Assembly (NCBI GenBank): GCA_000231825.2 | Contig: JH720325.1 | Span: forward strand, 49,920-68,909 | DNA: 18,990 nucleotides | Direction: 5' to 3' | Origin: Tetrahymena elliotti 4EA | Lineage: Eukaryota > Ciliophora > Oligohymenophorea > Hymenostomatida > Tetrahymenidae | Shown: piece by piece, positions 1 through 18,617 of the stretch | Numbering within the stretch: position 1 is the stretch's first letter | Layout of the letters: each line of letters begins with the position of its first letter | Notes under the pieces: generated by a model | Database searches by the model: none | The model's input: only the letters and a program-made list of their open reading frames with translations | Told to the model about the DNA's origin: nothing | Program-made: the position numbers and the translations under genes

Positions 1-3000
1 CTGAATTTATTTATTTATTTTTAATACTTAAAATAGTGTGTAAAATGAAAGAGAATGAAGATAGAAATTAAAATACAATTTTAAATAAAAATAGTTTGTA
101 ATTTATTAGAGATTAAATCAGATAAATACGGATGAATCTGAAATAAAATATAGTGAGTAAGATTGATTTGAAATTGAAAAACAGAATAAACTTTAACAAA
201 CTTTAGTGAGTAACTGATTAACTAATTGATAGATTACAAACTAATTAAATAACTATTTAGTGTATTATTAGCTTATTTTTTAAATAGCTAGATAGTTAGA
301 TGGTTAGTAAAATACAACAATTAATTTATCATTTTCCCTTATATAAATAGGAAGTAAAATTGCTAAATCATTTTCAATAAATTTTGTTTTTATCTAAATT
401 TCTGGAATAAAAATCAGCAAGTAATAAATAAAAATTAAATACTTTGAATAAATTGACTTAACTTTTAATTAAAATATAAATAATTAAGGAAGTAATTCTT
501 CTTTTATTTAAGATGAGATTAATCTTAATTAGTTTAAATCTTAAATATAGCCAGTAATATTCTTTTAGAAAAAAGAAATTAAAATATTTTGTTAATTGTG
601 TGAAAATAAAGGATGTAAAGAATTTAATTTGATTTTTCTCATAAGCATATGAAGAAATAGATCTTTAATTCAAAAAAGCGGGTAGCTAATTGATGATTTT
701 ATACTAATTTAAATACCTAAAAATCATAAAAATATTTATTAAAACATTAACAATAATTATGATAATTTTTATAAATAGATAGTAACTATTGATGTCCTTT
801 TATTTTAATGCTAATAAATTCTAATTAAAAAAAAAAAAGCATGTAAAAAATGAAAAAGAATTTGTATTAAAGAGAAAAAACAATATTTATTTTCAAATTA
901 GCTCGTAAAATTTAGATACATTTAGAATACTAAAAAAGAAGCTAAATTAAATACTAAAATGAATAGTTAGTAATAATTTGAATAGAAAGAAATAAATTTT
1001 TAATTATAAAATTAATTAATATTTTATTAGCAAGTAAATGTTTTTTGATGGTTTAACAAAATCTTAGCCAATAATTTAACTATTAAACTTCAATTTAAAA
1101 GGGATTATGACAAGTAAAATTATTTGAAAGGTATAAAAAACAAAATATTTTATTTTATTTGCATAGTTTAGAGTAAGAATTTAGAATCATAATGAACTAA
1201 AACTGATAAATAAATTAATTAAAATATTTGAAATAAACAGGAAAAACAATTAGTAATACTTTACAATGTCTCTTGCTGGAAAAAAATAATAACTGATTTC
1301 ATATATTTAATAAAATAGTGAGTAATGAGAGTTTACTTTCAAAATAATTACTTTTCGACATTTCAATTCATAAATTAACAACAAATAAATAAAAGGAAGT
1401 AAATCAATCAATCAATTAATTTATTTAACTTTAACCAATTTAAAAATATTCTTAATTGATAACTCTTTACATCAATATTAGCATGTAAAATTAAATAAAT
1501 TAATGTAAATTCAGTGGTTAATCTTATTTAAATGAAGGAGGTAATTAATTAATTTATTTATTAATGATCCATTTTTTCATTAAAAATTTTGTAAATTTAA
1601 ATTATTAATTAAATTTTTAATTAATTAAATAGATTGTAAGAATATTCAATACTTTATCTTTTGTCTTTGTCAACTAATTTTGATCTTTGAAATTAGACTG
1701 TAAATCTATTTCTGCTTTTTTATTTGTTTTAATTTAAATTTAATTTCTTTTTAAAATAGGCAGTAAATAAATATTTCTTTTATTTCTTGAAAGAAAATCT
1801 TAAAATATCTTGGATATCTAAAATAGACTGTAATTCTTCAATATGTTGAAATTGAATATATATTTATTAAATAACTATTAAAATAGTGAAACGTAGGAGC
1901 TTCAAATCACTCAGATTAATTTAAATAAATTTATTTTGAAACTTAAAATAGCGAGTAACAGCTTCAATTATTCATTTCTGAAAATTAAAATAAAATTAAA
2001 TCTGCTAAAATAGGTAACAAGAAACAGTTTTTGAGTTAAATTGATAGATTTTTATAAAGAAAAGAGTAAATAAATTGAATAATAATTTGAAAGCAAATGA
2101 AAACATTCATATTTATGATGAATTAAACAAATCTTAAACTTAAAAAGAGGGTGAGACATAAAAATAAATTGAAAATTTACTTTATTATTATTATTTTTCT
2201 CTAAAATAGAAAGTAATATTTTACAATGATGATATAAAGAAAGAACTTGATGAACTTATCTAATTATTATTGATTTAGAGTGTAAACTTTTCGACATAGA
2301 AACTTAAGTAAATAATAAACTAACCTACTAATTTTAAATAGCTCGTAATATTTTGAATTGAACAAGATATGAATTAACTTCAACCACCTTCCTTAATATT
2401 AAAATTAATAAAAAGATTGTAAAATATTTTTAAAATCTTTTCTAAAATTTTTTAAATTTTGTTTGGTTTTATTTAAAGAATGTAAGTTAGTTGGATAGAT
2501 TTAGACAATCTTTTTACAAAGAAATAGTTCAAATACATTTTATTTTTTATTCTTAAAACAGCAAGTAATTTTTTTAGATTGCTTGAAATTAAAAAGCTTT
2601 AACAATTTATTATGAAATAAGAGGGTATTCTATATCTTTAAATACATTATGATAATAAATTAATGAAAGAATCAAATAATCTTTTTATTTAACCAGCGAG
2701 TAAGAATTATTTTAAATTATTAATGAAAAGATAAATTAATAAATATTATTTATTGAATAGGAAGTAATTTAAATAATTTAATGACCTTACTAAGATTTAG
2801 ATTTAATTACTAAATAATTTCTATTTTTAAATTAGACTGTAAATAATACTTTTGAGGAAATTAAGTTTATTAATGATCTTTCATTAATTTTTAATTTGTG
2901 AAATAGCTAGTAATATTAAAGCCTTATTCAAATTCAAATATTAATTATTTATTTTAAAAATCTAATAATAGCTAGTAATATTTTTAGATTGGAGATTGTT

Positions 3001-4503
3001 CAATCAAAATTAAAAAATATCTATTTCAAAACAAAATAGCAAAAAGTAATATTATAAGAAAGTATTTAATTTAACATGATTTATTTACAAAACTAATTAT
3101 AAATAGTGAAGAGTAATATCTTTAATAATTTAAAATTAATTAAACAGAATTTTTAAATAAAAATAGCTTGAGGTAATATTTTCAGAAAAATTAATTTAAA
3201 AATATTTAAAATAACTTCAAAAAAAAATAGTTGGGAGTAATATTTTTAAATAATTTAATCTCTGAAAGAGGCTAATATACCTTTTGAATCAAAAATAGAG
3301 AGGAGTAATATTAATATATTTACTTCTATTGAAATTTTTTCTAACTTTATAAATAAAAACAGCAAAAAGTAATATTTAAATGATTAAACATTTATGACCA
3401 GATACAAAAAAATAGATTGTAAATTTATAACTTGTTTAAATAACAATATAATGAATTAACCTTGGTGTTTGAATGTTGGAAAATAGGTGGACGTAATATT
3501 CTAAATTAATTTAAATACAAAAATAAATTCAACAATTCAATATAAAAAAGTGAGTAATTAATTAATTAATTCATTGTTGATTGATTAGAAACATTTTTAA
3601 AATAAATAATGACTATTTATAATGAATGAATTGCTGACTCTTTCTATTAATAAAGATTGTAAAATTATTTGATTTAATAAAAAAAAAATAATTAATTAAA
3701 TTTAAAATGGAAATTATTAGTAAGTAAATTAAAATAAATAATTATAAACAACTAAAATATTTTTGATTGTTCAAAAATTAATTCAAATAGCTGGTAAATA
3801 ATTTTAAATTTTAAATGGATTTAGGAAAATTTAATTCATTTAATTTATGTAAAAGCGAGTAAGTTTACGAGACATTTAGAGTAGATGTTAATTATTTCAA
3901 TTAATTATTTGACAGATAGTAAAATTTATAAGGAAACCAAAATGAATATAATATTTATTTTTTTATAACCTATTCTTTAGTGAGTAAATTTTAATTTTAT
4001 TGAAGATGAAGGATTAGTAAACTTCAAAATAAATATTCTTAGGCTGTAATTATACTAATTTAGGAAATTAAATTGTTTATAATGTATAATTAAAACATTA
4101 GCTTGTAAATTAAAAAATATCTTTTCATTGGTAATATTGAACTAAATTAATTAATTAACCAAATAGCTGGTAAATATTTTTAATTTAAAAATAAATTTTG
4201 TTTAATTTAACTTTATTGATTTGAAAATAGAATGTAAAGTTTTTAAATTAGAAGAAAATTGAGCAAATTAATTAAATAAATTAATTATCATTAGGTAAAA
4301 TTTTTTTAAAATTTCTTAATGAGTGGACGGACAATCTTTTAAATTATTCTTATTTAAAATAGAAGGTAAATTTGTTCAATTTATTTATTTTTTCACAAAG
4401 AAAAACTTATTATAAAGACAGCAATGAAGATCAGAGAAGAAGTGTCTTTAGATTCAAGAATAAAAGGATCAAAAAATAAAGAAGACACAAATTAAAGCCA
4501 TGA
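1..4503 (+). CDS. 3' part of a hyper-fragmented microexon gene, product unknown
   Basis: I recognise no family. What is seen: a ladder of 63 tiny exons, each framed by AG before and GT (almost always GTAA) after, then a normal terminal exon. Fifty exons are 3 nt, ten 6 nt, two 12 nt and one 15 nt, so none shifts the frame. Reading the first base of each 3-nt exon as the third base of the preceding codon gives 80 residues without TGA: hydrophilic, acidic, Tyr/Lys/Asn/Glu-rich, for example IGYISYKDYDNLE, LLQLETEKEGK and KGEKLYYKNEDLSWEED. TAG is read as Gln twice. Frame 0 would contain eight TGA codons. A TGA falls across exons 4167-4169 and 4231-4233; beyond it the same frame runs through the terminal exon to TGA 4501-4503. 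The 5' end lies left of the window. Five exon borders (292, 1167, 2060, 2148, 2279) had alternatives and were picked by frame. Function cannot be inferred; spliced RNA is not available. Confidence 0.72.
37..1954 (+). other. Microexon block A (29 microexons)
   Basis: Exon start positions and bases: 37 TGT, 95 TTT, 154 TGA, 207 TGA, 292 (15 nt to 306), 351 GAA, 418 CAA, 489 GAA, 551 CCA, 612 GAT, 679 CGG, 779 ATA, 840 CAT, 902 CTC, 967 TTA, 1031 CAA, 1102 (12 nt to 1113), 1167 TTTAGA, 1241 (12 nt to 1252), 1319 TGA, 1396 GAA, 1482 CAT, 1538 GAG, 1633 ATT, 1697 ACT, 1760 GCA, 1827 ACT, 1887 TGAAAC, 1952 CGA. Donors are GTAA except GTAG at 682 and 1893. Introns run 44-97 nt. The exon at 292 is the least certain: AG occurs four times in its neighbourhood, and only the 15-nt choice keeps the frame. 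The codons read VFDEQLDGQ, then NKNQIGYISYK, DYDNLEKNNYE, NMRLLQLETE. Confidence 0.7.
2013..2014 (+). other. Zero-length exon / recursive splice site
   Basis: The bases around 2013/2014 are AAAATAG followed directly by GTAAC. The acceptor and donor abut with no exon between. The flanking introns would be 1955-2013 (59 nt) and 2014-2059 (46 nt), both the usual size for this ladder, so the site sits exactly where a microexon is expected. It fits a ratchet (recursive) splice point or a slot whose microexon has been lost. Otherwise 1955-2059 is one 105-nt intron. Confidence 0.55.
2060..2974 (+). other. Microexon block B (14 microexons)
   Basis: Exons: 2060 AAAAGA, 2148 AGG, 2210 AAA, 2279 AGT, 2342 CTC, 2416 ATT, 2479 AAT, 2562 CAA, 2622 AGG, 2697 CGA, 2761 GAA, 2836 ACT, 2907 CTA, 2972 CTA. 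Two donors differ from GTAA: GTGAGA at 2151 and GTATTC at 2625, both after AGG exons. With the last bases of block A the codons give EKEGKVSLIKGEKLYY. The exon at 2060 could also be a single A at 2065, and the one at 2279 a single T at 2281; 6 and 3 nt keep the frame. The two adjacent CTA exons have nearly the same flanks (TAGCTAGTAATATT), which suggests local duplication of an exon-intron unit. Confidence 0.7.
3040..3492 (+). other. Microexon block C, run of 6-nt exons
   Basis: Exons: 3040 CAAAAA, 3107 TGAAGA, 3167 CTTGAG, 3231 TTGGGA, 3299 AGAGGA, 3363 CAAAAA, 3416 ATT, 3487 GTGGAC. Six 6-nt exons in a row stand out in a ladder otherwise dominated by 3-nt exons. Their donors are nearly identical, GTAATATT (GTAATATC at 3113), and the acceptors are mostly AAATAG. 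The codons give KNEDLSWEEDKKLWT, which holds both Trp residues of the visible protein. The sameness of the donors points to spread of one unit within this stretch. Confidence 0.72.
3551..4365 (+). other. Microexon block D (12 microexons) with split TGA
   Basis: Exons: 3551 TGA, 3656 ATT, 3721 TAA, 3791 CTG, 3856 CGA, 3916 ATA, 3981 TGA, 4043 GCT, 4102 CTT, 4167 CTG, 4231 AAT, 4363 AAG. The codons read EFNCEYELF and then TGA, with TG from 4168-4169 and A from 4231. If the CTG exon at 4167 is skipped the frame instead runs ELLISNEDQRR into the terminal exon. Introns are 56-102 nt; the 3554-3655 intron is the longest of the ladder. Confidence 0.68.
4294..4295 (+). other. Second zero-length exon / recursive splice site
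   Basis: ATCATTAG at 4287-4294 is followed directly by GTAAAATT. Introns on either side would be 4234-4294 (61 nt) and 4295-4362 (68 nt), the normal spacing. It is the second AG|GTAA junction in the ladder that occupies a microexon slot without any exon bases. Confidence 0.55.
4422..4503 (+). other. Terminal exon of the microexon gene, basic C-terminus
   Basis: Acceptor ACAG at 4418-4421, then C completing the previous codon, then 26 codons and TGA 4501-4503. The residues begin NEDQRRSVFRF and continue KNKRIKKQRRHKLKP, so the tail is strongly basic (many Lys/Arg, nuclear-localisation-like), in contrast to the acidic microexon-coded part. The phase matches that of every microexon. If the split TGA upstream is used as a stop, this exon would be 3' UTR; its protein-like content argues that at least some transcripts read through it. 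An alternative acceptor AAAG at 4414-4417 would shift the frame. Confidence 0.6.
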
Positions 4504-5049
4504 AATAAATGGTTGATTGAATTAAGTTATAAAAGATTAAATATTTTATATTGTTACTTGTTTACTTATATCTTGTAAACTTAATTTTTCATTAACTTTT
4601 TTTTTTGAACAAAAATAAAAAATAATTAAATGTTTTTCTTGTATCTTTCATGATTTATTTACTTTTTATTGAAGTGCTTTTTTAATTTTTTAATGAAACT
4701 CTTTCTTGAGTTAAATAAGAGATAATTAATACCTTCTTTATGTATTAATTTCTTTCAATATCAAATCTACAGAATAATTGGATTGTTTGAGTATATAGAG
4801 CAGTTTTCAAATTGTTGGAAATACTATTTTATTTCTTAGAAATTATCATCTTATCAAAGTTTTTTTATTTAAATCTAAAAATATGGCTCAAAATATAGTA
4901 AAAAAGATTTTATAATTATATCAAAAGGTAGAATTATATGTGTATTTTACATCCAAAATAAAAAATATTTTCCAAATGAAATGTGTTTTATTTAATATTT
5001 CATACATAAAATATATTAATGAATGCAAAATATAATAATTTTATAATAA
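4504..5049. other. AT-rich spacer without recognisable gene
   Basis: This stretch holds the presumed 3' UTR of the microexon gene and then low-complexity A/T sequence with homopolymer runs. I see no AG-NNN-GTAA ladder here, no convincing coding frame and no RNA gene. Confidence 0.6.
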
Positions 5050-5376
5050 TCAACTAACTAATAATTATTTGATATTTATTTATTTAACTTGAAATTTGTC
5101 AATATAATTATTTATCTATTTGTTTGAAATGTTATTCCAAGCAACTATAATTTATGCGATAAACTGTTCTTTATTGTGAGGGTTTTATTTTTCAACAAAT
5201 TAGCTCCAGATTTACTCAATAGGGTTTAAATTTGGAGTCTAAGGAGGGTACTTTTAAACTGTAATTTTTTTATCTTGAAACTTGTCTGAATCTTATTTTT
5301 AAAAATTTGAGCATAATAAATTAATCGTAGGGAAATTTTTTATAGAATAATTCTTCATATCTTACTTAGCTTTCTT
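5050..5376 (-). pseudogene. Tc1/mariner-type transposase, C-terminal fragment
   Basis: The minus strand, read with TAA/TAG as Gln, carries KYPPQTPNLNPIEQIWSQF (about 5250 down to 5200) and then KEQFIAQIIVAWNNIS. The PP-Q-[ST]-P-x-LNPIE-x-[IL]W signature marks the end of the DDE/D catalytic domain of Tc1/mariner (IS630 superfamily) transposases; the Glu of NPIE and the Trp are kept. The frame ends at TGA (complement of 5050-5052) and is closed upstream by TGA (complement of 5377-5379), giving about 108 codons, against about 340 in intact family members. The N-terminal helix-turn-helix and the first catalytic Asp residues are missing, so it is a relic. No clear terminal inverted repeats or TA duplication were found. 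Confidence 0.78.
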
Positions 5377-5402
5377 TCAAAATTATTTTTAAAAATTTGA
5401 GC
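5293..5402. repeat. 20-bp direct repeat, 90 bp apart
   Basis: TTATTTTTAAAAATTTGAGC occurs at 5293-5312 and again at 5383-5402. The two copies lie on either side of the join between the Tc1-like and hAT-like relics. They may mark a small duplication or the recombination junction between the two. Confidence 0.7.
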
Positions 5403-6448
5403 TATTATCTTTATTTATTTTGTAAATACCATAATATGTTTATATTTAATAAATTAAATATTACTTTTATTACAACTTAAGAAGTCTTTTTTAAAATTCA
5501 TAATTTCCTTGAGAATATTATTACAAGTATATTTAAAACATATCATTTAAATGTTTTCAGAAAGTTCTATAGCTAACTTATTGGCTTTTGCTCCATCTAC
5601 TTTAAATGTGATTTAATTGCAAATCTCATCTTCTGGAAATTATTCTGTTTAAAAATAATAAAGTTTATTTGAATTTTAAAAAAATAAAAATATATCAAGA
5701 AGATCATATTTTTTAACAATATTTTCAAAATCTTAGAATATATCTTAACTTGTTCCTCCATTTCACAAAAATTGGTTCTAGATGCTTAATATTTTTAATT
5801 AGAATTCTGAATTAATAAATATTAGGTAAACTGAAATATATTTTTCCTTTGTGATACTCTCATAATTGCCAAATTATAGACCAAATAATTTTCCCTTTTA
5901 AAGGAGATTCAGTTTAATATCTTCTTGAAATTTGTTTACAAAAAAGCTATGCATTTGAATAATATATTTCCACATAATATTACTGATAGGTAATTCATAG
6001 TTTTTGTTTAGATGTTTAATAAGCTCTTTAAATCCGTTTATTCAACTATATTTATTGGTAGAAATTACTTATTAATATAAACCAAAAAATATTAAAATAA
6101 TTTTTAAATCTTAGTTATTTAAATTTATTAAATTGTAATTTTACATATGAAAGATTATTCTTGGTCTTCTAGTTTAGCATAAAAGATTGTAATTGTATTT
6201 ATTCAGTTTTTTATGAATCACCTTTTTTTTAATTTAATCTTCTTGAATTTTATTATCATTAACATCTTCTTTTAATTGAGCAGAATGATTCTTCTGTGTG
6301 TTTCCAGAGATTTAATATAGTAGGAGAATTATTGAAACTTAATTCCTTTGTACAATACTTTGCATGTTACTTTGTTATTCACTTGATCCCAATGCTTCCA
6401 AATGATAGAATTTTTTTTCTTTTTTTAGATAAAATTATTAGAATTCAT
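5355..6448 (-). pseudogene. BED-finger / hAT-like transposase relic
   Basis: Minus-strand reading from ATG (complement 6446-6448) gives a Lys-rich start, then SIIWKHWDQVNNKVTCKVLY; one frame over it continues NSPTILNLWKHTEESFC. Together these resemble a BED zinc finger (W...C...N-T-x-L...H), with one Cys lost and a frameshift. A further frame from about 6032 to 5355 is open except for one TGA (near 5766) and reads ELPISNIMWKYIIQMHSFF, then YISVYLIFINSEFQLKIL, DEICNQITFKVDGAKANKL and MICFKYTCNNILKEIMN. Order and spacing recall hAT transposases (Y-[IL]...HFID.W, then a C..H..N block), but the key catalytic residues are not clear. The C-terminal dimerisation region is absent; the frame stops where the Tc1 fragment begins. 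Assignment to hAT is tentative; the alternative is an unknown ciliate-specific gene in decay. Confidence 0.45.
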
Positions 6449-8670: not shown

Positions 8671-11600
8671 ATGATGTTATAGAAATAAAAATATTATGAT
8701 AATTTAGAAGATGTAAATCAATATTTAGAAGCAATATGATTAAGATTATATTTATAATGCAAAAAGTTTATAAGTTCTAACTTATCTGACCAAACCAATC
8801 TTCACATCAAGATAGAGTAAAGTTTATTTGATTTTTTTAATTATTTAAAAATATGAAATTTAGTTTTGTCTAAAATATAAACAAGAGTATTACTATCTTA
8901 CAAAATCTCTTATTTTGAATTAATTTACTATTAGTCTTTTAATCTTTTTTAATATTTAAAACATATTATTTCAAAAATAGGAGCGAAAAAAGAGAGATAG
9001 TATTTTTTGGGCTAATTGTCTTATAACTCAACAAGTATTTAAATATTAAGATTTTATTAAACAATAATAATTGCAAATCTTCTTTAAAAGGGATTGCAAA
9101 ATAGGATTAGAAGGTGCCTCAAATTTAGGTTCTGCTTTTTCAAAATGCTCTGAACTATTATGCTTAAGACTTTCTTTAAGGTAAAATCACTTAAAACTTT
9201 TAAATTTTATTGATCTGCTTTATCATTAATTAACACTAAAAGAATAAATAGCAAATTCTTTTAATCAAATTTAATTTTATAAAAAAAGTGATAACAGTAT
9301 TGGAGATCAAGGATTAATAAATTTAGTTAATGGACTAACATATTGTAAAAAGCTTGAAATTTTATCACTCACTCTTTAGTATATTTCTAAGATTTCTATT
9401 ATTGAATTATTTTCAAATAATAATTTTTAAGAGAAAACTAAATTAGTAATCACAGTGTTTCTGAATTAGGATTACAATTAGAGACATTTAAGAATATCTC
9501 TACCTTAGAACTCAATTTACAGTAATTTTATTTGTTTATTTTTTACTTTATAAAATTAAATTAACGAAGTTAAATAATATTTTACATTAAATTAGGACCA
9601 ACTAAATAAGTGACCAAGGAATATCAGATTTAGGTTGTGGATTAGTAAAATGTACAAATCTAGCATTTCTGAAGCTAAATTTAATGTAAAAATTCAATTT
9701 TAGGTATAAATCTAAAATAAGTATCTAATTTTAACAGCAGGAACAACTATGGAGAAAATGGATCCCATAATTTAGCATCTGAACTATCAAAATGCAAAAA
9801 GCTTACTACACTTAAGCTTATAATTGAGTAAAATTTTTTGTTTGCACTTAAACTTAAAAAATCTAAAAAGATTATCTAAATTAAATTCATTAAAATTTTT
9901 TTAAAATAAATTAATTACTTAAAATTTAGTCATTTTTAGAAAATTTAAAGTCTATTTTTATCATAAAAAGTGCAAATTTAACAGATGATTCAGTGAAATT
10001 AAACTTAGGCTCTGGTTTGGCAAAATGCAATTAATTAGAAAATTTGACTCTTCTTTTTAAGTACATTTTTTCTTAAATGTGTTTTGCAAATTATTTTTTA
10101 AATTCTTCACAATCATTCAAACCAATGGCATAGAATAAAATTTTGTGATTGATAAATTAAAACCATATTGAATTTGAGAAATTAATCTTTTTTTTTGAGA
10201 TGGAGCTAGAAATCATTTAAATTTATTAGAATATTTTTTAATTAATTATTGTTTAAAAAATTTTATTACAATTAAATACTATGATTTAAATTTTTTTAAT
10301 AATTTAAAATTATTTCAATAGTGGTAAAATGAGTCATGAATATGCTTTAAATTTAGGAACTGGATTAGGATAATGTATAAGTATTTCAAAACTAGTAATT
10401 TTTCTTTAGTAAATTAATTTTATTAACTCTTAAATAAATTATTACTTTGCTAATATTTAATTCTCAATACATAATAGATTATTTTTTATTTTTAATTTTA
10501 TTGAAGATTAAATAAATTATTTTGATTTTGATTTAATTTAGAAAATACTTTTGCTTAATTTTATTTCATTTTCTTTAAAAAAAGCAATAATAATTTAGAT
10601 TAACAAGGCACCTATAATTTATTATTTGGAATACCTAAATGTGCAAATCTATCTTATTTAGAACTAAAGTTAAAGTAAATATAGATATCTTAATAAATTA
10701 TTGTTATTTATAATGATTTAGTAGAAATTATTCACACATTTTTATTTAATATTAAATTTGCAAAGTAATAACAATATTGGAAGTGGAGGAGCATCAAAAA
10801 TAGGTAGCGAAATAGCATAATGCCCAAAATTATCTGAAATTATTCTAGAGTTAGAGTAAACCAAATTTGTTTTTTTAAACTTTAAACATAGATTTCTTTT
10901 AAAAATAAAAAGAAAAAAAATAATTAAAAAATAAAATTTAATTCTATGTCCAAAATGATTTTGCTCAAATATCAATTTAAAGTTATTTAAAAACCTATTT
11001 TAAATATTTTATTACTATTATAAAGAAATAATAACATAGACGATAGTGGTGTCCTTGCTTTATGCTCTGGTATTTCTAAATGTTCAACCATCTCAATTAT
11101 GACTTTAGCATTAAGGTATTTTAGCTTTTTTCCTTTTTAACTTATATTTTAAGCTTTTAATAAAATTAAACAATCTTATAATAAAGCTAGAATAAAATTG
11201 GAGATCATGGTGCAGCTTGCTTGGGTATCTAATTAGGGAATAGCTCTTCATTATCAGCTTTGTAACTTAATTTAAGGTAAATTTATATTACGAATATTTT
11301 TAAGATAGATTTAAATAGAAAGTATTTTACAATCTATTTAAGAAAATATAAATAAAATATATTTTATTATGATGATTTGCATTGAAATAACTCTTTATTT
11401 TAGTGATCTAACATTATTTTATTTAAAATCTAAAAAGTGATAATAACATTATGAGCTATGGTGTATCTAATTTAGCTTAAGGATTATCTAAATGCTAGAC
11501 CCTCGAAAAAATGATAATACATTTAGTGTAAATTTTGATTTAAATTTGATAATCTTAAAACACATTTTAGAAACAAAAAGTATCAAATATTTATGAAAAT

Positions 11601-13624
11601 AATATTATTATTATTATTATGATAAGAGATAATTAAATTGCAGACAAAGGATTATCAGCAATAGGATCTGAATTAAGGAATTATAGTAAGCTTTCTGCCT
11701 TAGAGCTTGACATTTAGTAAATATTTTCTTTGTAGTTCAAAGTTCTAGCTTAACTATTTTAAAACATAATACTATAAAAATGATTTCATAATTATATTAT
11801 TCTTATTTAATAACCTTGAGCTTCATCAAATTTCTTGTTTAAAAAATAAAATTTAAAATTAATAATTATTACAAGAGGAGCTAGTTTGGGAGATGAAGGT
11901 CTATCTGATTTAGGCGCTGGATTAGCAAAATGTAGAAATCTTGAAGTTCTAATTATTTTATTTGAGTATAAAATTAGCATAAATTAAATTAATATTTAAA
12001 AGATTTATTTTTAGCATAATTTAAAGTTTTCATAAAAACAATACCAAGAATTTTAAATTTATCAAATAATTTGGTAAATTAAATGTTTTATTCTTTTAAT
12101 AAAAGAATCCTTTGTTTGAAAACTTGAGATATGTTTAGATTATTAATCATCTTTTTCAATGTTTAAAATAATCTAATATTTTAGAACTTAAAATAATAAT
12201 TTATTTTTATGAAATTTTTTTAAAAGTAAAAATGAGATTGCTGATAAGGGCTTATCAAATTTGGGAGCCTAGCTTGGACTGAATTCTAACTTACAAGTTC
12301 TTAACTTATCGTTGAAGTACATTAATACATTGAATTATTTAAACTTAATAAAAAATTACTAAATTATTAATTTGATCATGTTTACCCTTATTTTGATAAA
12401 TTATATCATCTATTTAATTAATTAAAAAATATTTTTATGAAGTAAAAATAAGATTGGTGACGATGGTCTTTCATGTTTGGGTTTTGGATTAGCAAAATGT
12501 AGTAGTCTTTTCTCAGCAAAATTATTTTTTGAGTAATTTCATTTTCTCAATTTTGAAAAAATCTTTGATATTAATTACTGTTTAGTAATTTTTCAACATT
12601 ACTTTAAAATGTATTATTTATAAATTAAAGATTTAATTGCTTTGGAGATGACGGAATATCAAACTTAAGCCTTGGGTTATCTTAATGTCCTAAACTTAAA
12701 ATTTTGGCACTCTTTTTAAAGTAAATTCTAAATTAATTTAAATTAATTTTAAAAGTTAATTAAATCATCAAAAAGTTTAAGATAAAATTATTATTAGTTA
12801 TTTAATAAAATATTATAAATTTTTTATTTATCAAAAAAGTGAAAATAAAATAGGGGATAAAGGTGCTCAACACCTAGGAATTAATCTAACTAGGTCTAAT
12901 AGCTTCTCATATCTAAATTTGGAAATAGAGTAAAAATTAATTATGAAAAATTATACTATTTTAACGAAAAATCTTTAAAAGGAGGAATAAGGTTAATATC
13001 AGATCATTTTCAAAACTAATTACAAGAATCAGAAAAATGAAAAAGCTAGTTAAATACTTTTTTTCTTGGGATTATGAAGAGGTTATTCAAAATCAAAATA
13101 ATGAGGCTCCTTAATAATAAGGGAATAATTAGGATGATGATGGTTAACCATAAGATAACTAAAATAATTAATAACAAGAAAATAATTTAGATTAGGGTAA
13201 TGGTGATCTTGGTTAGGGGGCGAATGATAATGGTCATGAAGAATAAGAAGAAAATAGCGAATTTGAGCATTTAGAATAAAGCTAACTAAACGATTAAGAT
13301 AAAGAAGATGAGTCTTATCCATCATAAAAGGATGAATACTTATCTAATCAATTAGTAAGTGAAGAATAACATTTTTTGGAAAGAAATGAAGATAATAATT
13401 CATAACATGAAAATGACTAATAACAGTATGATGAGTAAATTAATAATATTAAAAAATAAACACTTAACAAATTTATTTATAATCATTAATTAAAATAGGA
13501 ATCAAAATTGATGAGATTTTTTTGGCATATTTTTATTCTTGTTTACAATTAATATTAATATTTCATGTTTTTTAAATTGTTTTATTTCTCATTAATTAAA
13601 AAATATTTAATTTAAATTTTTTGA
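8671..13624 (+). CDS. LRR gene 1: RNI-type leucine-rich-repeat protein, 21 exons, 782 aa
   Basis: Exons: 8671-8712, 8767-8816, 9091-9180, 9289-9378, 9432-9521, 9596-9685, 9741-9827, 9971-10060, 10322-10408, 10585-10674, 10766-10855, 11026-11115, 11187-11276, 11438-11527, 11627-11716, 11876-11965, 12227-12316, 12443-12532, 12631-12720, 12840-12929, 12982-13624; 2349 nt with TGA. Exons 3-20 each encode one ribonuclease-inhibitor-like repeat, pattern N-x-I-G-D-x-G-x3-L-x2-G-L-x-K-C-x2-L-x2-L-x-L-x-L, e.g. NKIGDDGLSCLGFGLAKC. Intron 1 is phase 0, all others phase 2. The final exon has KLITRIRKMKKLVKYFFSWD, then an acidic Gln/Asn-rich region, and about 35 hydrophobic C-terminal residues (possible tail anchor, or AT-rich sequence before the first TGA). 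No kinase or other enzyme domain; a protein-binding horseshoe is likely, partner unknown. ATG follows an A-rich leader, and exon 1/2 borders are backed by the paralogue. Confidence 0.92.
8713..8766 (+). other. Phase-0 first intron of LRR gene 1
   Basis: A 54-nt GTAAAT...AAAAAG intron that removes an in-frame TGA (8737-8739). Without it the LRR frame has no start codon. The matching intron in LRR gene 2 (18519-18575, 57 nt) sits between exons of the same sizes, 42 and 50 nt, and the following exon begins FISSNLS here and FIRSNLS there. That independent match fixes the start of both genes. Confidence 0.85.
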
Positions 13625-13887: not shown

Positions 13888-16800
13888 TCAGGATAGATGT
13901 AGTTTTTTTAATATCTTATCAATACGTATTTTTAAATTAGTTGTGTCAGTTTTCATTGCTTTTAATATTAATTAAACACAATCATAATTTTCAAAATTTT
14001 TTATGATAAATTTATTTTACTTATCAATCTCTTCTTGGTTTTTTTGTTTATCGGTTTAAGATTGTTCTTATTAAGTCAGATTTTATTGATGATTTAAATC
14101 AACTTAATTATTTTCACTATCATGATTGTTTTCATTTGATTATTTTGAAGTATTATCAATTGAGTTATTTTCATTGTTTTATTTTTCCAAATCATTTTAC
14201 ATTAAATCTAAATGTTATTCTGGTGATTCACTCTCTTCGTCACTTTCTTCACTATATTAGTATTCATATTACTAATCTATTTTATATTGGAGCACACAAC
14301 TTAATCTAACTAATTTTTTCATTTTATGGATATTTTAGAAAAACTTTTAATTTGTAGGTATTTTAACAATATTTCCTCTTTTTTACAATGTAAACATTAA
14401 TATTTTTATAAAGGCAAAGTATTTTACTGTAGATCAATTGTTAAGTATGTAATATTGCAACATTTTCTTAAATTCTATGCTAAATTTAATACTCCTTTAT
14501 CACTAATTTTATTATCGCTATTGATATAATATAAAATTATTTTGCCGATCATCAAGTTTCAATTTATTTTATTTTTTTTTCGAGAGAATAAAACATTGAT
14601 GAATTTACTTTAAATCGCAAACTAATATTTTAAGCATATTACAAAGAGTTAATCCTAAACTAAATTAAGTAATGCCTTAATCTCCAAAGCTATTTTAACT
14701 TTTTATATTAATATTATAATTTATTATTTTTTGTAAGATACAAAATAAATTACTCTAGTTATATATTTATGCCTATTAGATTCCTACATTTTGCTAGATT
14801 AAAACCTAAAGATGAAATACCATTATCACCAATTTAATTGAATCTAAAATATATTTAAATTAATTTTATTAGTCAATTAAAAGTCTCTTCTTCAAAAATT
14901 TTCTTATGTTTATTTATTTATAAAAGTGAAATATATACCTAAAACCTAAAACTAGATTTTCTAAGCTAGAACATAAAACTAATTAGGCTCCTAGATTTGA
15001 TATACTTTTATCACTGATACAGTTTTTTCTTTTAAAATTTAAAAATAGAGTTAAATAAATTAATTTATAAAGAAAACTAAAAAGTAAATTATTTAGATAA
15101 AGTTATTATTGAAATTAAAATATCTTTAAATATTTTTTTAAATGTAATATTTCATTTATTTTATCAGATATATTTTTTTCTGAAGTAAAACCTTAGCATT
15201 TTATTAAAAACTTAATTATCAATTAAACATTAAAAATTTTTAAAGCTTATTAGAATAACTTGGTATAAATTATCTGTAATTTATTTGTTTGATATTTTAA
15301 TTTAATTAATATTACTCAGCTGTGAGTATCAAATTTTGAATGCTTTTACATTTTGCTAATTCATCCCCTAATTCAATAATACACTGATCTCCAATACCTG
15401 TTTCCCTTAATAAAATTTTTAAGAAATTCATTTGATTTAACAAAAAGTGATAAATTATAAAAAATATTAGATTTACGTTAAGAATAACCGAAAGAATGAA
15501 AGCTTTTCTAAATGAGAAAATGTGTTTCTAATAGTTGATAGACCTTTATCACCAATTTTGTTTTTGCTTTTTCATAATTTTAATCATTAATAATAAAAAA
15601 TAAAGTTTTCTCTCTAATAAAATATTAGATTTGAAATTGCTGAAGCAAATATTAATTTAAAGATTTACTCAAAGTTTAATTGCAATTTTTCAATTGCTGA
15701 CAATAATGGCAATCTTTAAATTAAGTTTTATGAACCATAGCTTGTAATCTTGTTATCCCTTTAAGCATTAATAGTATTAAAATATATTTTGTAAAAATAT
15801 CATTCAAATATTATAAAATTCATTTTTATAAAATTTAAATAATTTTTAACACAATTATGTTTATATTAACTTCAAATTGAGAATCAATTCTTTTAGTTAA
15901 GTGCATTTAGTTAATTCTGTTGCCAAATTTTGTACTCCATTGTCTCCAAATTTGTTAGATCTTTTATTTTTAGAATTAAAAAAGAAAAAATTTAACAATA
16001 ATATGATCAAATATTCTTCTTTCAAATGAAAAAAAAAAAATCTGTTACCCTAAATGTAAGCTTAATTTTTCTATGCTTGAACACTTAGATATTCCAGAGC
16101 TTAGCTCGTATATACCATTATCTTCAATACTATTTTAACTTTTATTTAATATGTTAAATATTTATTAATTAATATCAAAATTAACATAATTCTCATAAAT
16201 GATTATCAACATTTTATAAATTAATTTTGAAGTTGTTTGCTCAAAAAACTTTTATAAAATTAAAATTAGAGAACATTACTCCAAACCTAATAGCATTTCT
16301 TATAATTTAATACACAATGCTACTTCTTTGCCTATTTTGGAAAGACATCCATTACCTATTTAGCTATTCCTAAATATAGTAAATATTTTTGTATGTACAA
16401 ATTTATCATAAATTAATAGTAGAAATTTAAGATTTTAATTCATAAATTAAATTTAAAATTAATTAATTATTTTTATACTTTAAAATGATTTCTAGTTAAG
16501 TTAAGTTTATGCAGTTTGATAATTCTGAGAATAAATTTTATTAGGCCTATTCACTTAGGTTGTAATCTCTTTTTAAATAAGAAATTATATTAGAATTTAA
16601 AAGGGATAAAAATATTAAAACAAAAAATATTTGAAGCATAATAAGACAAAAATTATACAGTTTTTACTTCAAATAATTATCAAAGGTTATTTTTTTAGTT
16701 TTTAAAAATGTTAATAAGAAATAATTTTACGAGTAAACAAAATTGAATTTTTTGACATTAATTAATTTTCCTAATCCAATTCCTATACTTAAAGCCAATT

Positions 16801-18617
16801 GGTTATTTATTTTGCCGCTAATAAAATAGAGAAAATAGAGTTAATTTCAAATTTTAAAAGAATAATTTTTATTCATTTATTAAGAATTATCAAAAATATT
16901 TTCTAATTGTTTAACAAAAAGAATTTTCATCTCTTTCAGATTATTTTTTATAAAAATAGATTACAAAAAATGAACCTTTAGATGTTTTTATATACTTTTG
17001 GAGTGGTTGAGGGGGATGAAAAACAGAAAAACGTTGAATTTTTATTAAATATTCAAATTTCAGATTAATAAAGCTTTTCTTTTTTTATGGGGTTAATTTT
17101 TTTATTTTTCCCTCTTATTAAAGTAATTTCAGAAAAATTTTAAATAATTTATAAATTTTATTCAAAGTAATACTCATAAAAAAGAATTAAATCTTCTAAT
17201 TGAGAGCATCTAGCTAATCCATTCCCAAAATTTAATACACTATTGTCTTCTTATTGGAGTAAGCTATTTTATTTTAAGTATATATTATGGAATTAGATAA
17301 TACAATAAAACAATCTAATACTGAATATAAATCTGAAGCTTGATCAGATTGCTACATTTTGATAACTCAGACATTAAATTGTATAATCCTATTTATCCAT
17401 AACAATTTCCGCTATTAACAAGAATAAAAAAATATTTGAGATATTAATAAAAGAAATTTAAAATAAAAGGATTAAGATAATAATTTAAATCTTAAAAAAA
17501 ATAGGATAAATGAACTTTCAAATTAATTTTATTTTAAATAAATATTTCATTTTTTACTTTAAAAGTAGATCTAGATATTAAAGATTTATGCAGCTTGATA
17601 TTCCTTCTCCTAAATTCTTCAAACTTTAATCACCAACTTTGTTTTCACTTTAAATTAAAATTTATAGATTTAAATTAGAAAATAATAATTTTTTAAATAA
17701 TATTTTTATGTAATTAGAAGAAATAAATTATTTTATTTACCTCAGACAGATTTCTAATTTTTAAATATTTTTCAACTTTTAGAATGAAGATCCTAACTCA
17801 CTGAGATCACTTATAAGATTTCCTCTTTCAAATTATTTTATTAGTTAAAGTATGATAATCAAATAAAATATATTTTTTTTAAATAAATATGAAGTATCAA
17901 TCATTTTAAAATCAGTTTATTTTTATTAAATAAATTTATGTCAAATTTACGCAAAATCTATTTTTAAGCTTTAAAGGTTTAAACAATGTGATAATCCTTA
18001 TACTAAATCAGAAAAACCAGCATTATCAATAGTATGTTAACTTATTATTATTTTATTTGTTAAAAATTAAATAATCTTAATATTTATTATTATATCTTTT
18101 CTATTATTTAAATTTTTAATTAAAATTCATTTACCGTAAGGTAATTTTAAGACATTATAACTAATCACATTTTGCTAAAGCATTGCCTAGTTTTTTAGCT
18201 CCTGAATTACCAATTTTAGTGTTCCTTCAAAGAATTTTAAGTTATTAAGAAAGTTTATTCATTTTAATTATTTTTAAGAATTTATTTATACATAATGAAT
18301 GATGAAATTCTATTTTACTAATAGAAAACTCTTTCAATTTTATTTCTATGTTTTTGATTGTTAAATAAAATAAATTTTAATAATAATAATAGTAAGCTTT
18401 TATCTTAAATTAAAGATGTAAAATATCGTTTATTCAAAAATTAATAAAACAAAGGCAAATAAATTTACTAAATTGATAAGTTAACATTCTTATGACCACT
18501 TAAGTTAGATCTTATAAACTTTTGTTATAGTATAATTAAAATATATAAAATATCATTTTAAAAATTAATAATTACATCAACGCAGCAATCATACTTAACC
18601 TCATTAATAAGCTCCAT
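13888..18617 (-). CDS. LRR gene 2: RNI-type leucine-rich-repeat protein, 21 exons, 730 aa
   Basis: Exons, 5' to 3' on the minus strand: 18617-18576, 18518-18469, 18224-18135, 18040-17951, 17824-17741, 17647-17558, 17411-17322, 17263-17174, 16817-16731, 16568-16479, 16369-16280, 16138-16049, 15960-15871, 15758-15669, 15566-15477, 15405-15316, 15028-14939, 14843-14754, 14698-14609, 14517-14428, 14377-13888; 2193 nt with TGA. Eighteen exons carry one repeat each; sixteen are 90 nt, one 84, one 87. Examples: NKIGDKGLSTI and NQIGDNGISSLGFNLAKC. Intron 1 is phase 0, the rest phase 2. Donors are GTAA or GTAT except GTTAAT after exon 13. The last exon has KFFQNIHKMKKLVRLS, then an acidic Ser/Glu/Asn/Gln-rich region and a short basic end, IRIDKILKKLHLS; it lacks the hydrophobic end of gene 1. 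ATG lies in an A-rich context. Likely a protein-binding scaffold; partner and location unknown. Confidence 0.92.

Follow-up and report, generated by a model that had tools for sequence, protein, structure and literature searches.

The window analysed here is the whole stretch of 18,990 nucleotides (nt) from Tetrahymena elliotti 4EA (NCBI GenBank assembly GCA_000231825.2, contig JH720325.1, positions 49,920 to 68,909 of the forward strand), and coordinates are counted from its first letter. Its first 4.4 kb carry a ladder of splice signals, in which tiny units are set between an AG and a GTAA and are separated by segments of about 62 nt. Comparison with other loci of the same genome indicates that this ladder of about sixty units is very probably the 3' part of a Tetrahymena-type kinase gene, whose C-terminal domain of about 80 residues would be spliced from the units stepwise, from 5' to 3'. 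The predicted features are as follows.

37..4169, + strand: ladder coding part, 61 predicted exons (model plus one-phase homology; 5' end beyond the left edge)
Coding exons 1-10, + strand: 37-39, 95-97, 154-156, 207-209, 292-306, 351-353, 418-420, 489-491, 551-553, 612-614
Coding exons 11-20, + strand: 679-681, 779-781, 840-842, 902-904, 967-969, 1031-1033, 1102-1113, 1167-1172, 1241-1252, 1319-1321
Coding exons 21-30, + strand: 1396-1398, 1482-1484, 1538-1540, 1633-1635, 1697-1699, 1760-1762, 1827-1829, 1887-1892, 1952-1954, 2060-2065
Coding exons 31-40, + strand: 2148-2150, 2210-2212, 2279-2281, 2342-2344, 2416-2418, 2479-2481, 2562-2564, 2622-2624, 2697-2699, 2761-2763
Coding exons 41-50, + strand: 2836-2838, 2907-2909, 2972-2974, 3040-3045, 3107-3112, 3167-3172, 3231-3236, 3299-3304, 3363-3368, 3416-3418
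Coding exons 51-61, + strand: 3487-3492, 3551-3553, 3656-3658, 3721-3723, 3791-3793, 3856-3858, 3916-3918, 3981-3983, 4043-4045, 4102-4104, 4167-4169
292..306, + strand: 15-nt exon ATAGTTAGATGGTTA, absent from the automatic model and placed by homology with loci C33b (L019) and C82 (L018); it restores VFDEQLDGQ
4167..4233, + strand: predicted split stop codon, TG (4168-4169) plus A (4231) after removal of intron 4170-4230
4293..4298, + strand: zero-length exon (AG at 4293-4294, donor from 4295), candidate ratchet (recursive) splice site in the 3' untranslated region (3'UTR)
4363..4365, + strand: last 3-nt exon (AAG), in the 3'UTR
4422..4600, + strand: terminal 3'UTR exon with acceptor GACAG at 4417-4421 (end approximate); it holds GTGTC..GACAC and TTGTAAACTTAA

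The splice-signal ladder and its recurrence

A strict count of AG-NNN-GTAA on the + strand of positions 1-4500 gives 47 matches, exactly the figure of about 47 in the initial annotation, and AG-N6-GTAA gives 9, while each of the remaining spacings from 1 to 30 gives 0-4. On the - strand of the same region a spacing of 3 is found once and a spacing of 6 not at all. In 1-4420 AG-NNN-GTAA reaches a density of 106 per 10 kb. Twelve loci of this genome that lack a ladder served as background and have 3.7 per 10 kb of strand, a figure that is slightly inflated in that eight of the 12 were chosen for holding one such site. Over the whole window and both strands there are 54 matches, compared with a mean of 7.5 (standard deviation 2.6, maximum 17) in 200 dinucleotide shuffles. 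The motif is thus far denser than in shuffled or unrelated DNA, as had been claimed.

The search was extended to the 90-Mb genome (134 contigs). Three consecutive AG-NNN-GTAA units at intron spacing occur in 241 places and the reversed pattern in 1; for AG-NNNN-GTAA there is 1 triple, and 2 for its reversed control. Merged within 4 kb, the triples form at least 45 clusters. This is a lower bound, as the list of triples is complete for first exons that begin with A or C, and reaches only as far as contig C23 for those that begin with G or T; in the tally dense clusters were thinned and two neighbouring C56 kinase matches were counted as one. An unexplained strand bias was seen, with 185 of the 241 triples and 33 of the clusters on the + strand of the contigs and 12 clusters on the - strand.

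The strict counts, the shuffles, the other loci and the reversed and 4-nt patterns together rule out a chance origin. The ladder of AG-N(3k)-GTAA sites in the first 4.4 kb is real.

Predicted exon-intron structure

Ladder loci were modelled by dynamic programming, 14 of them in the main analysis of exon length, followed by L029-L033 and then L034-L035. The 14 loci gave 649 internal exons, of which 513 are 3 nt and 87 are 6 nt long. Exon length was given no preference in this model, and 625 of the 649 are nevertheless multiples of three. The splice-site matrices were trained on sites flanking 3-nt units and favour such sites, not multiples of three as such. When the reverse complements of the 14 loci were modelled in the same way, chains of merely 1-5 introns were obtained. 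For the window itself, the 63 tiny exons first proposed, fifty of them of 3 nt, agree with our final model (50 of 3 nt, 10 of 6 nt, 2 of 12 nt and 1 of 15 nt), a total that includes the homology-placed exon at 292-306 and two 3-nt units at or beyond the stop codon.

The intron segments have ends of the form GTA(A)...AG and a median length of 62 nt. Among 671 introns of 40-110 nt from 12 of the 14 loci, lengths are spread evenly modulo three (214/215/242), so the multiple-of-three rule is a property of the exons and not of the repeat unit. An origin as tandemly repeated DNA with 3-nt spacers is excluded both by these variable introns and by the occurrence of a 4-nt version of the ladder just once in the genome. 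In the window the introns are in phase 2, so a 3-nt exon would complete one codon with its first base and open the following codon with its other two.

The gene extends past the left edge of the window, where the DNA is N. Stretches of N are also found within or ahead of the 5' part of the ladder genes at L009, L010, L012, L013, L015, L017, L018, L022, L025, L029, L034 and L035.

A predicted conserved C-terminal tail

When the exons of the window are joined in its phase, the predicted product is VFDEQLDGQNKNQIGYISYKDYDNLEKNNYENMRLLQLETEKEGKVSLIKGEKLYYKNEDLSWEEDKKLWTEFNCEYELF-stop, a tail that can be abbreviated as VFDEQLDGQNKNQIGYIS...CEYELF. Units of the relatives joined in one phase likewise give a domain of about 80 residues ending in CEYELF-stop, with the core DE.K..IG.I...D......K.IG.VSL..G...Y....CEYELF in an alignment of 11 loci (the row of the window in this alignment is without QLDGQ).

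The 13 ladders tested fall by blastn into seven groups, between which alignments cover at most 10% of a ladder (W is the window).

Ladder group 1: W, C82, C33b, C24b, C24c, C40a
Ladder group 2: C23, L031
Single-locus groups: C50, C17, L029, L032, L034

Within groups, the ladder DNA in common amounts to 93-98% for C23 and L031 and to 35-71% between the W and C40a subgroups. Profiles trained without the whole group of the locus under test recognise the tail in all 13 loci, in one phase, with E values from 5e-21 to 6e-4 (L034 being the weakest, at 6e-4). The best E value in any other phase is 6e-4, obtained once, in C23 (5e-21 in its right phase); all others are 0.04 or worse. The right phase of the window carries a different label in this test, as its automatic model starts with a wrong 19-nt exon. 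The sequences tested came from models that prefer multiples of three and are blind to TGA and homology. Profile rows were taken from models that, in addition, avoid phase-2 TGA, except for that of C23, which came from a simpler model.

The strongest argument for the 3-nt units being exons is that the loci have the protein in common and not the DNA between its codons. From these sequences we infer that the units are joined in RNA into one conserved tail. That this is part of a microexon gene, as originally suggested, is upheld at the level of sequence by the recurrence in the genome, by the one-phase conservation of the protein across unlike ladder DNA and by a conserved stop codon that forms at a junction.

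No homologue of the tail was found in the protein database, and there was no PDB or Pfam match of weight. A 5-fold beta-flower domain (PF21785) scored 19.6 bits in one of 11 tails, below its cut-off of 38, and is a lead only.

The predicted split stop codon and 3'UTR

The exon at 4167-4169 is CTG and that at 4231-4233 is AAT. The stop codon TGA would exist only after these two units are joined, T and G closing one 3-nt exon and A opening the next; in unspliced DNA the frame continues through the site as TGG TAA, which reads W Q in the ciliate code. Fourteen loci were inspected for this site. In all 11 that show it, the exon after CTG opens with A and the next two bases vary; in the window these last two bases would belong to the 3'UTR.

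This changes one part of the initial annotation, in which a single frame stayed open for about 80 codons and entered a coding terminal exon ending in TGA at 4501-4503. The one-phase reading of about 80 residues stands, but it stops at the junction TGA before that exon is reached. The terminal exon follows the conserved TG|A and its length varies by indels among the paralogues, which leaves no shared coding frame; a coding terminal exon is thus rejected and the exon is assigned to the 3'UTR.

The zero-length AG|GTAA site downstream of the stop is present in W, C24a, C24b, C24c, C40a, C40b, C82 and C33b, and C23 and C17 have a 1-nt unit instead. When the window at 4422-4600 is set beside 10 other ladder ends, GTGTC..TTAGATTC..GACAC is seen in several and TTGTAAACTTAA in most. 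The GTGTC/GACAC pairing is by eye, and alifold on the 11 sequences gave no consensus structure.

Association with a kinase

When 19 ladder loci were searched by tblastn for relatives of the L014 kinase, 11 of them proved to have a kinase upstream of the ladder and on its strand (a second ladder, which spans L010 and L011, was left out of the 19).

Kinase-bearing ladder loci: L010, L012, L013, L014, L016, L018, L020, L022, L029, L031, L032

Among the other eight, there is N upstream in four (the window, L015, L017 and L025) and three resemble another gene type (L024, L030 and L033). The gene of C40a (L014) matches Pkinase PF00069 with an E value of 7.9e-36 and 124.2 bits, above the cut-off of 31.7, and so belongs to this superfamily. 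Genome-wide, of 33 copies of this kinase at least 17 are followed by a ladder within 9 kb, at least 16 of these within 4.4 kb, where 0.07 would be expected. Identity of the kinase ahead of the ladders to T. thermophila proteins reaches 64% at most, and named Tetrahymena account for 33 of the 34 matches at an E value of 1e-10 (29 T. thermophila, 2 T. utriculariae and 2 T. malaccensis). In L014, by eye, a coiled-coil exon follows the kinase and has its donor in phase 2, so that the first ladder exons continue its frame. We infer that the gene of the window also starts with a kinase.

At 2935-3012 of L014, read-through of the first ladder intron would give the short C-terminus PKYYLI-TGA, and the same is seen by eye in L013. 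In L014 this is possibly an intron-retention isoform.

The ladders of this apparent second gene type are open in phase 0, in which a 3-nt exon would be one whole codon. Phase 2 contains TGA in all three, and phase 1 in two of them (L030 is open there). By eye, the ladders of L030 and L033 are preceded by exons with cysteine-rich, zinc-finger-like, coiled sequence.

L024 5011-5900: apparent second-type ladder
L030 4560-6710: apparent second-type ladder
L033 (reverse) 3920-5725: apparent second-type ladder

In L019 (C33b), genes for tRNA-Lys (2746-2820) and tRNA-Glu (3065-3137) lie just upstream of a ladder that begins at about 3580.

Divergence of the microexons

In pairs of paralogues, divergence is 1.9-5 times higher in the microexons than in the surrounding introns. 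For C24c/C40a, 41 of 189 microexon sites and 141 of 3279 intron sites differ (p 4e-16); the corresponding figures are 56 of 224 and 418 of 3141 for W/C82, 59 of 202 and 453 of 2945 for W/C33b, and 7 of 195 and 40 of 2782 for C24a/C24b (p 0.03). The pairs that include W are not independent, and 40, 28, 29 and 9 model-discordant positions were dropped from C24c/C40a, W/C82, W/C33b and C24a/C24b, respectively. The class of GT/AG sites was not used, being free of change by construction.

Nonsynonymous divergence (dN) in the microexons is 1.6-5.5 times and synonymous divergence (dS) 1.6-7.8 times that of the introns, and both are raised in all six pairs. As dS is raised too and dN/dS ranges from 0.26 to 1.18, exceeding 1 in just two of the six pairs, the ratio alone is no proof of positive selection. 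In C24c/C40a the tail has 23 nonsynonymous and 4 synonymous codons of 59, compared with 16 and 14 of 321 in the kinase plus coil; at kept residues, synonymous changes number 4 of 36 in the tail and 14 of 305 in the kinase plus coil (p 0.11). Diversifying selection, local mutation or constraint on the introns could each account for the fast exons, and we lean towards the first. We predict that the tail serves the kinase as a fast-diverging domain for recognition or regulation. A tail that changes faster than the introns beside it raises the question of what this kinase recognises.

Weighing the interpretation

Several results weigh against a ladder spliced into a kinase tail. The counts of TGA are weak evidence: among 383 strict neighbouring pairs from the 14 loci the coding phase has 12, against 7.4 predicted by base composition, and the remaining phases have 14 and 20. 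Strict TGA in the coding phase amounts to 0-2 per locus, and the terminal stop accounts for most of the 12, though not for all. An open frame by itself is therefore weak proof, as the initial annotation had itself cautioned. Twenty-four of the 649 exons are not multiples of three, many of them in C40c (L016), a locus that has a kinase and a ladder but no recognisable tail. Enrichment of the branch-site-like word TTAAC is no more than 2.1-fold and is exceeded by that of at least 15 other words. L019 has a ladder without a kinase upstream, and 16 of the 33 kinase copies are without a strict ladder downstream among the ladders listed. No domain database names the tail. Nor is it carried by any of the 34 relatives that the kinase has in the database, of which 29 belong to T. 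thermophila (best profile E value 0.32), and annotation appears to miss it. Judged by eye, the C-termini of these relatives look like mis-annotated ladder DNA.

If the sites were ratchet points only, a long 3' intron would be removed piecewise and the 3-nt units would be lost or meaningless. Zero-length AG|GTAA sites do stand in the array, are common to eight loci and are accompanied, 3' of the stop codon, by further units of 1 nt and 0 nt. Discarded units, however, would not be expected to give the same protein in one phase at 13 of 13 loci, also across unlike ladder DNA, nor to keep multiples of three and the TG|A at 11 of 11, and we consider this explanation very unlikely.

The ladder might also be a relic, a tail formerly spliced and no longer expressed or needed. 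The kinase copies without a ladder, the ladder of L019 without a kinase, the absence of a tail behind the kinase of L016 and the fast divergence of the microexons would all suit such a history. A one-phase tail with its core residues kept is nevertheless found in seven groups whose introns are no longer alike, and the strict in-phase TGA count is low at all 14 loci; a relic is highly improbable.

Ciliates eliminate internal sequences from their DNA in macronuclear development, and the 62-nt segments could be internal eliminated sequences (IESs), cut from DNA rather than from RNA, in an assembly that may be germline or somatic (no telomere repeat was found at two contig ends, an empty search that is uninformative on this point). 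The segments, however, end in GTA(A)...AG; Tetrahymena IESs are not known to have this size or this border type, and T. thermophila proteins labelled macronuclear end, by eye, in apparent translated ladder introns. We regard elimination from DNA as extremely unlikely.

Read-through of the split-site TGA (for example, as selenocysteine) into a coding terminal exon can practically be set aside, for although that exon of the window is open to the TGA at 4501-4503 in the ladder frame, the terminal exons of paralogues differ by indels, only the A is kept in the exon after CTG, and Rfam, which includes selenocysteine elements, has no family at gathering score in the window.

Proposed mechanism

We therefore retain the reading in which the spliceosome would join the tiny units as exons, from 5' to 3', into the C-terminal domain of a kinase. 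A 3-nt exon could hardly be bound at both ends at once, and for this reason we propose stepwise splicing from the 5' end. With each ligation, the following GTAA donor would come to lie 3 nt behind the growing exon. At every step the spliceosome would thus meet one long upstream exon and an intron of about 62 nt, and never a 3-nt exon between two bound introns. The zero-length sites in the same arrays fit such a process. The exon lengths may be kept at multiples of three because a skipped exon would then cost one residue and leave the frame intact. The earlier suggestion that splicing here works purely by intron definition is a reasonable hypothesis; a stepwise 5'-to-3' order would, in our view, fit better.

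With moderate confidence we extend this proposal to the genus: Tetrahymena may splice whole domains codon by codon, in dozens of genes of more than one family, with up to about 70 exons of 3 nt and a processive 5'-to-3' cycle, the fast-diverging recognition tail of one kinase family being among the products. If this is true, a run of sixty exons that leave no room for factors at both ends would imply that the spliceosome needs no exon signal and can act in strict succession. It would also allow the splicing order to be tested directly in a laboratory organism and provide a natural limit case for exon size. The absence of the tail from the database relatives suggests, in addition, that a protein domain can escape gene finders.

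Comparison with known systems

In the open-licence PubMed Central (PMC) literature, no ladders of 3-nt exons were found described for Tetrahymena or other ciliates, in agreement with the initial statement that long runs of such exons are undescribed. In an RNA-seq study of T. thermophila a junction had to be flanked by 8 bp or more on both sides (PMC3274533), which 3-nt exons are unable to provide.

The closest parallel in gene structure is the micro-exon genes (MEGs) of Schistosoma. Their exons are longer than the 3-nt exons of the ladders. In the available parts of the published accounts, the coding sequence of MEGs lies mostly in very small symmetrical exons, the genes form families with accelerated protein evolution, most encode small secreted proteins, and they are apparently restricted to platyhelminths (PMC4350168, PMC4015677). 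The ladder genes share, in their tail part, the very small multiple-of-three exons (625 of 649), and also the family organisation and the fast protein evolution. Unlike MEGs, however, they would form a ciliate kinase tail from runs of 3-nt exons, their kinase part lies in ordinary exons, and kinase homology places the host among the ciliates and not the platyhelminths; a ladder gene works like a MEG and is not one.

Within Tetrahymena, the leucine-rich repeat (LRR) genes have arrays of 90-bp exons with phase-2 introns. The same study names seven domains for species-specific genes, protein kinase being one of them, and in the portion of its text available contains neither the term 'short exon' nor '3-bp' (Xiong 2019, PMC6564038). 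As far as that source goes, the two systems have in common the genus, tandem exons, young expanding families and, in the kinase-type ladders, the extreme bias to phase 2 (the three other ladders are best in phase 0). The 90-bp exons repeat a protein motif, whereas the ladder exons are mostly 3-15 nt, the introns make up the main mass and Pfam finds no LRR in 11 tails. By eye, the neighbours of the ladder in the window include LRR-like genes in which each exon holds one repeat, at about 9000-13000 (+ strand) and about 14600-18200 (- strand), of the 90-bp-exon kind described in the available text of Xiong 2019 (PMC6564038).

Very small exons are also known elsewhere, and the accessible portions of the reports describe 1-nt exons in plant APC11 and VPS55 (PMC8831610) and ultra-small exons in fungal CYP621A (PMC12940212). 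As in these genes, spliceosomes are able to include exons of 1-5 nt; there, to judge from those portions, one or two small exons stand among larger ones, whereas the ladder would have about sixty in succession. Recursive (ratchet) splicing at AG|GT sites occurs in long introns of Drosophila, and the ladders resemble it in the zero-length AG|GTAA sites of their arrays and in the stepwise removal proposed here. In Drosophila nothing is added to the mRNA at such a site, whereas each step of a ladder would add one codon's length.

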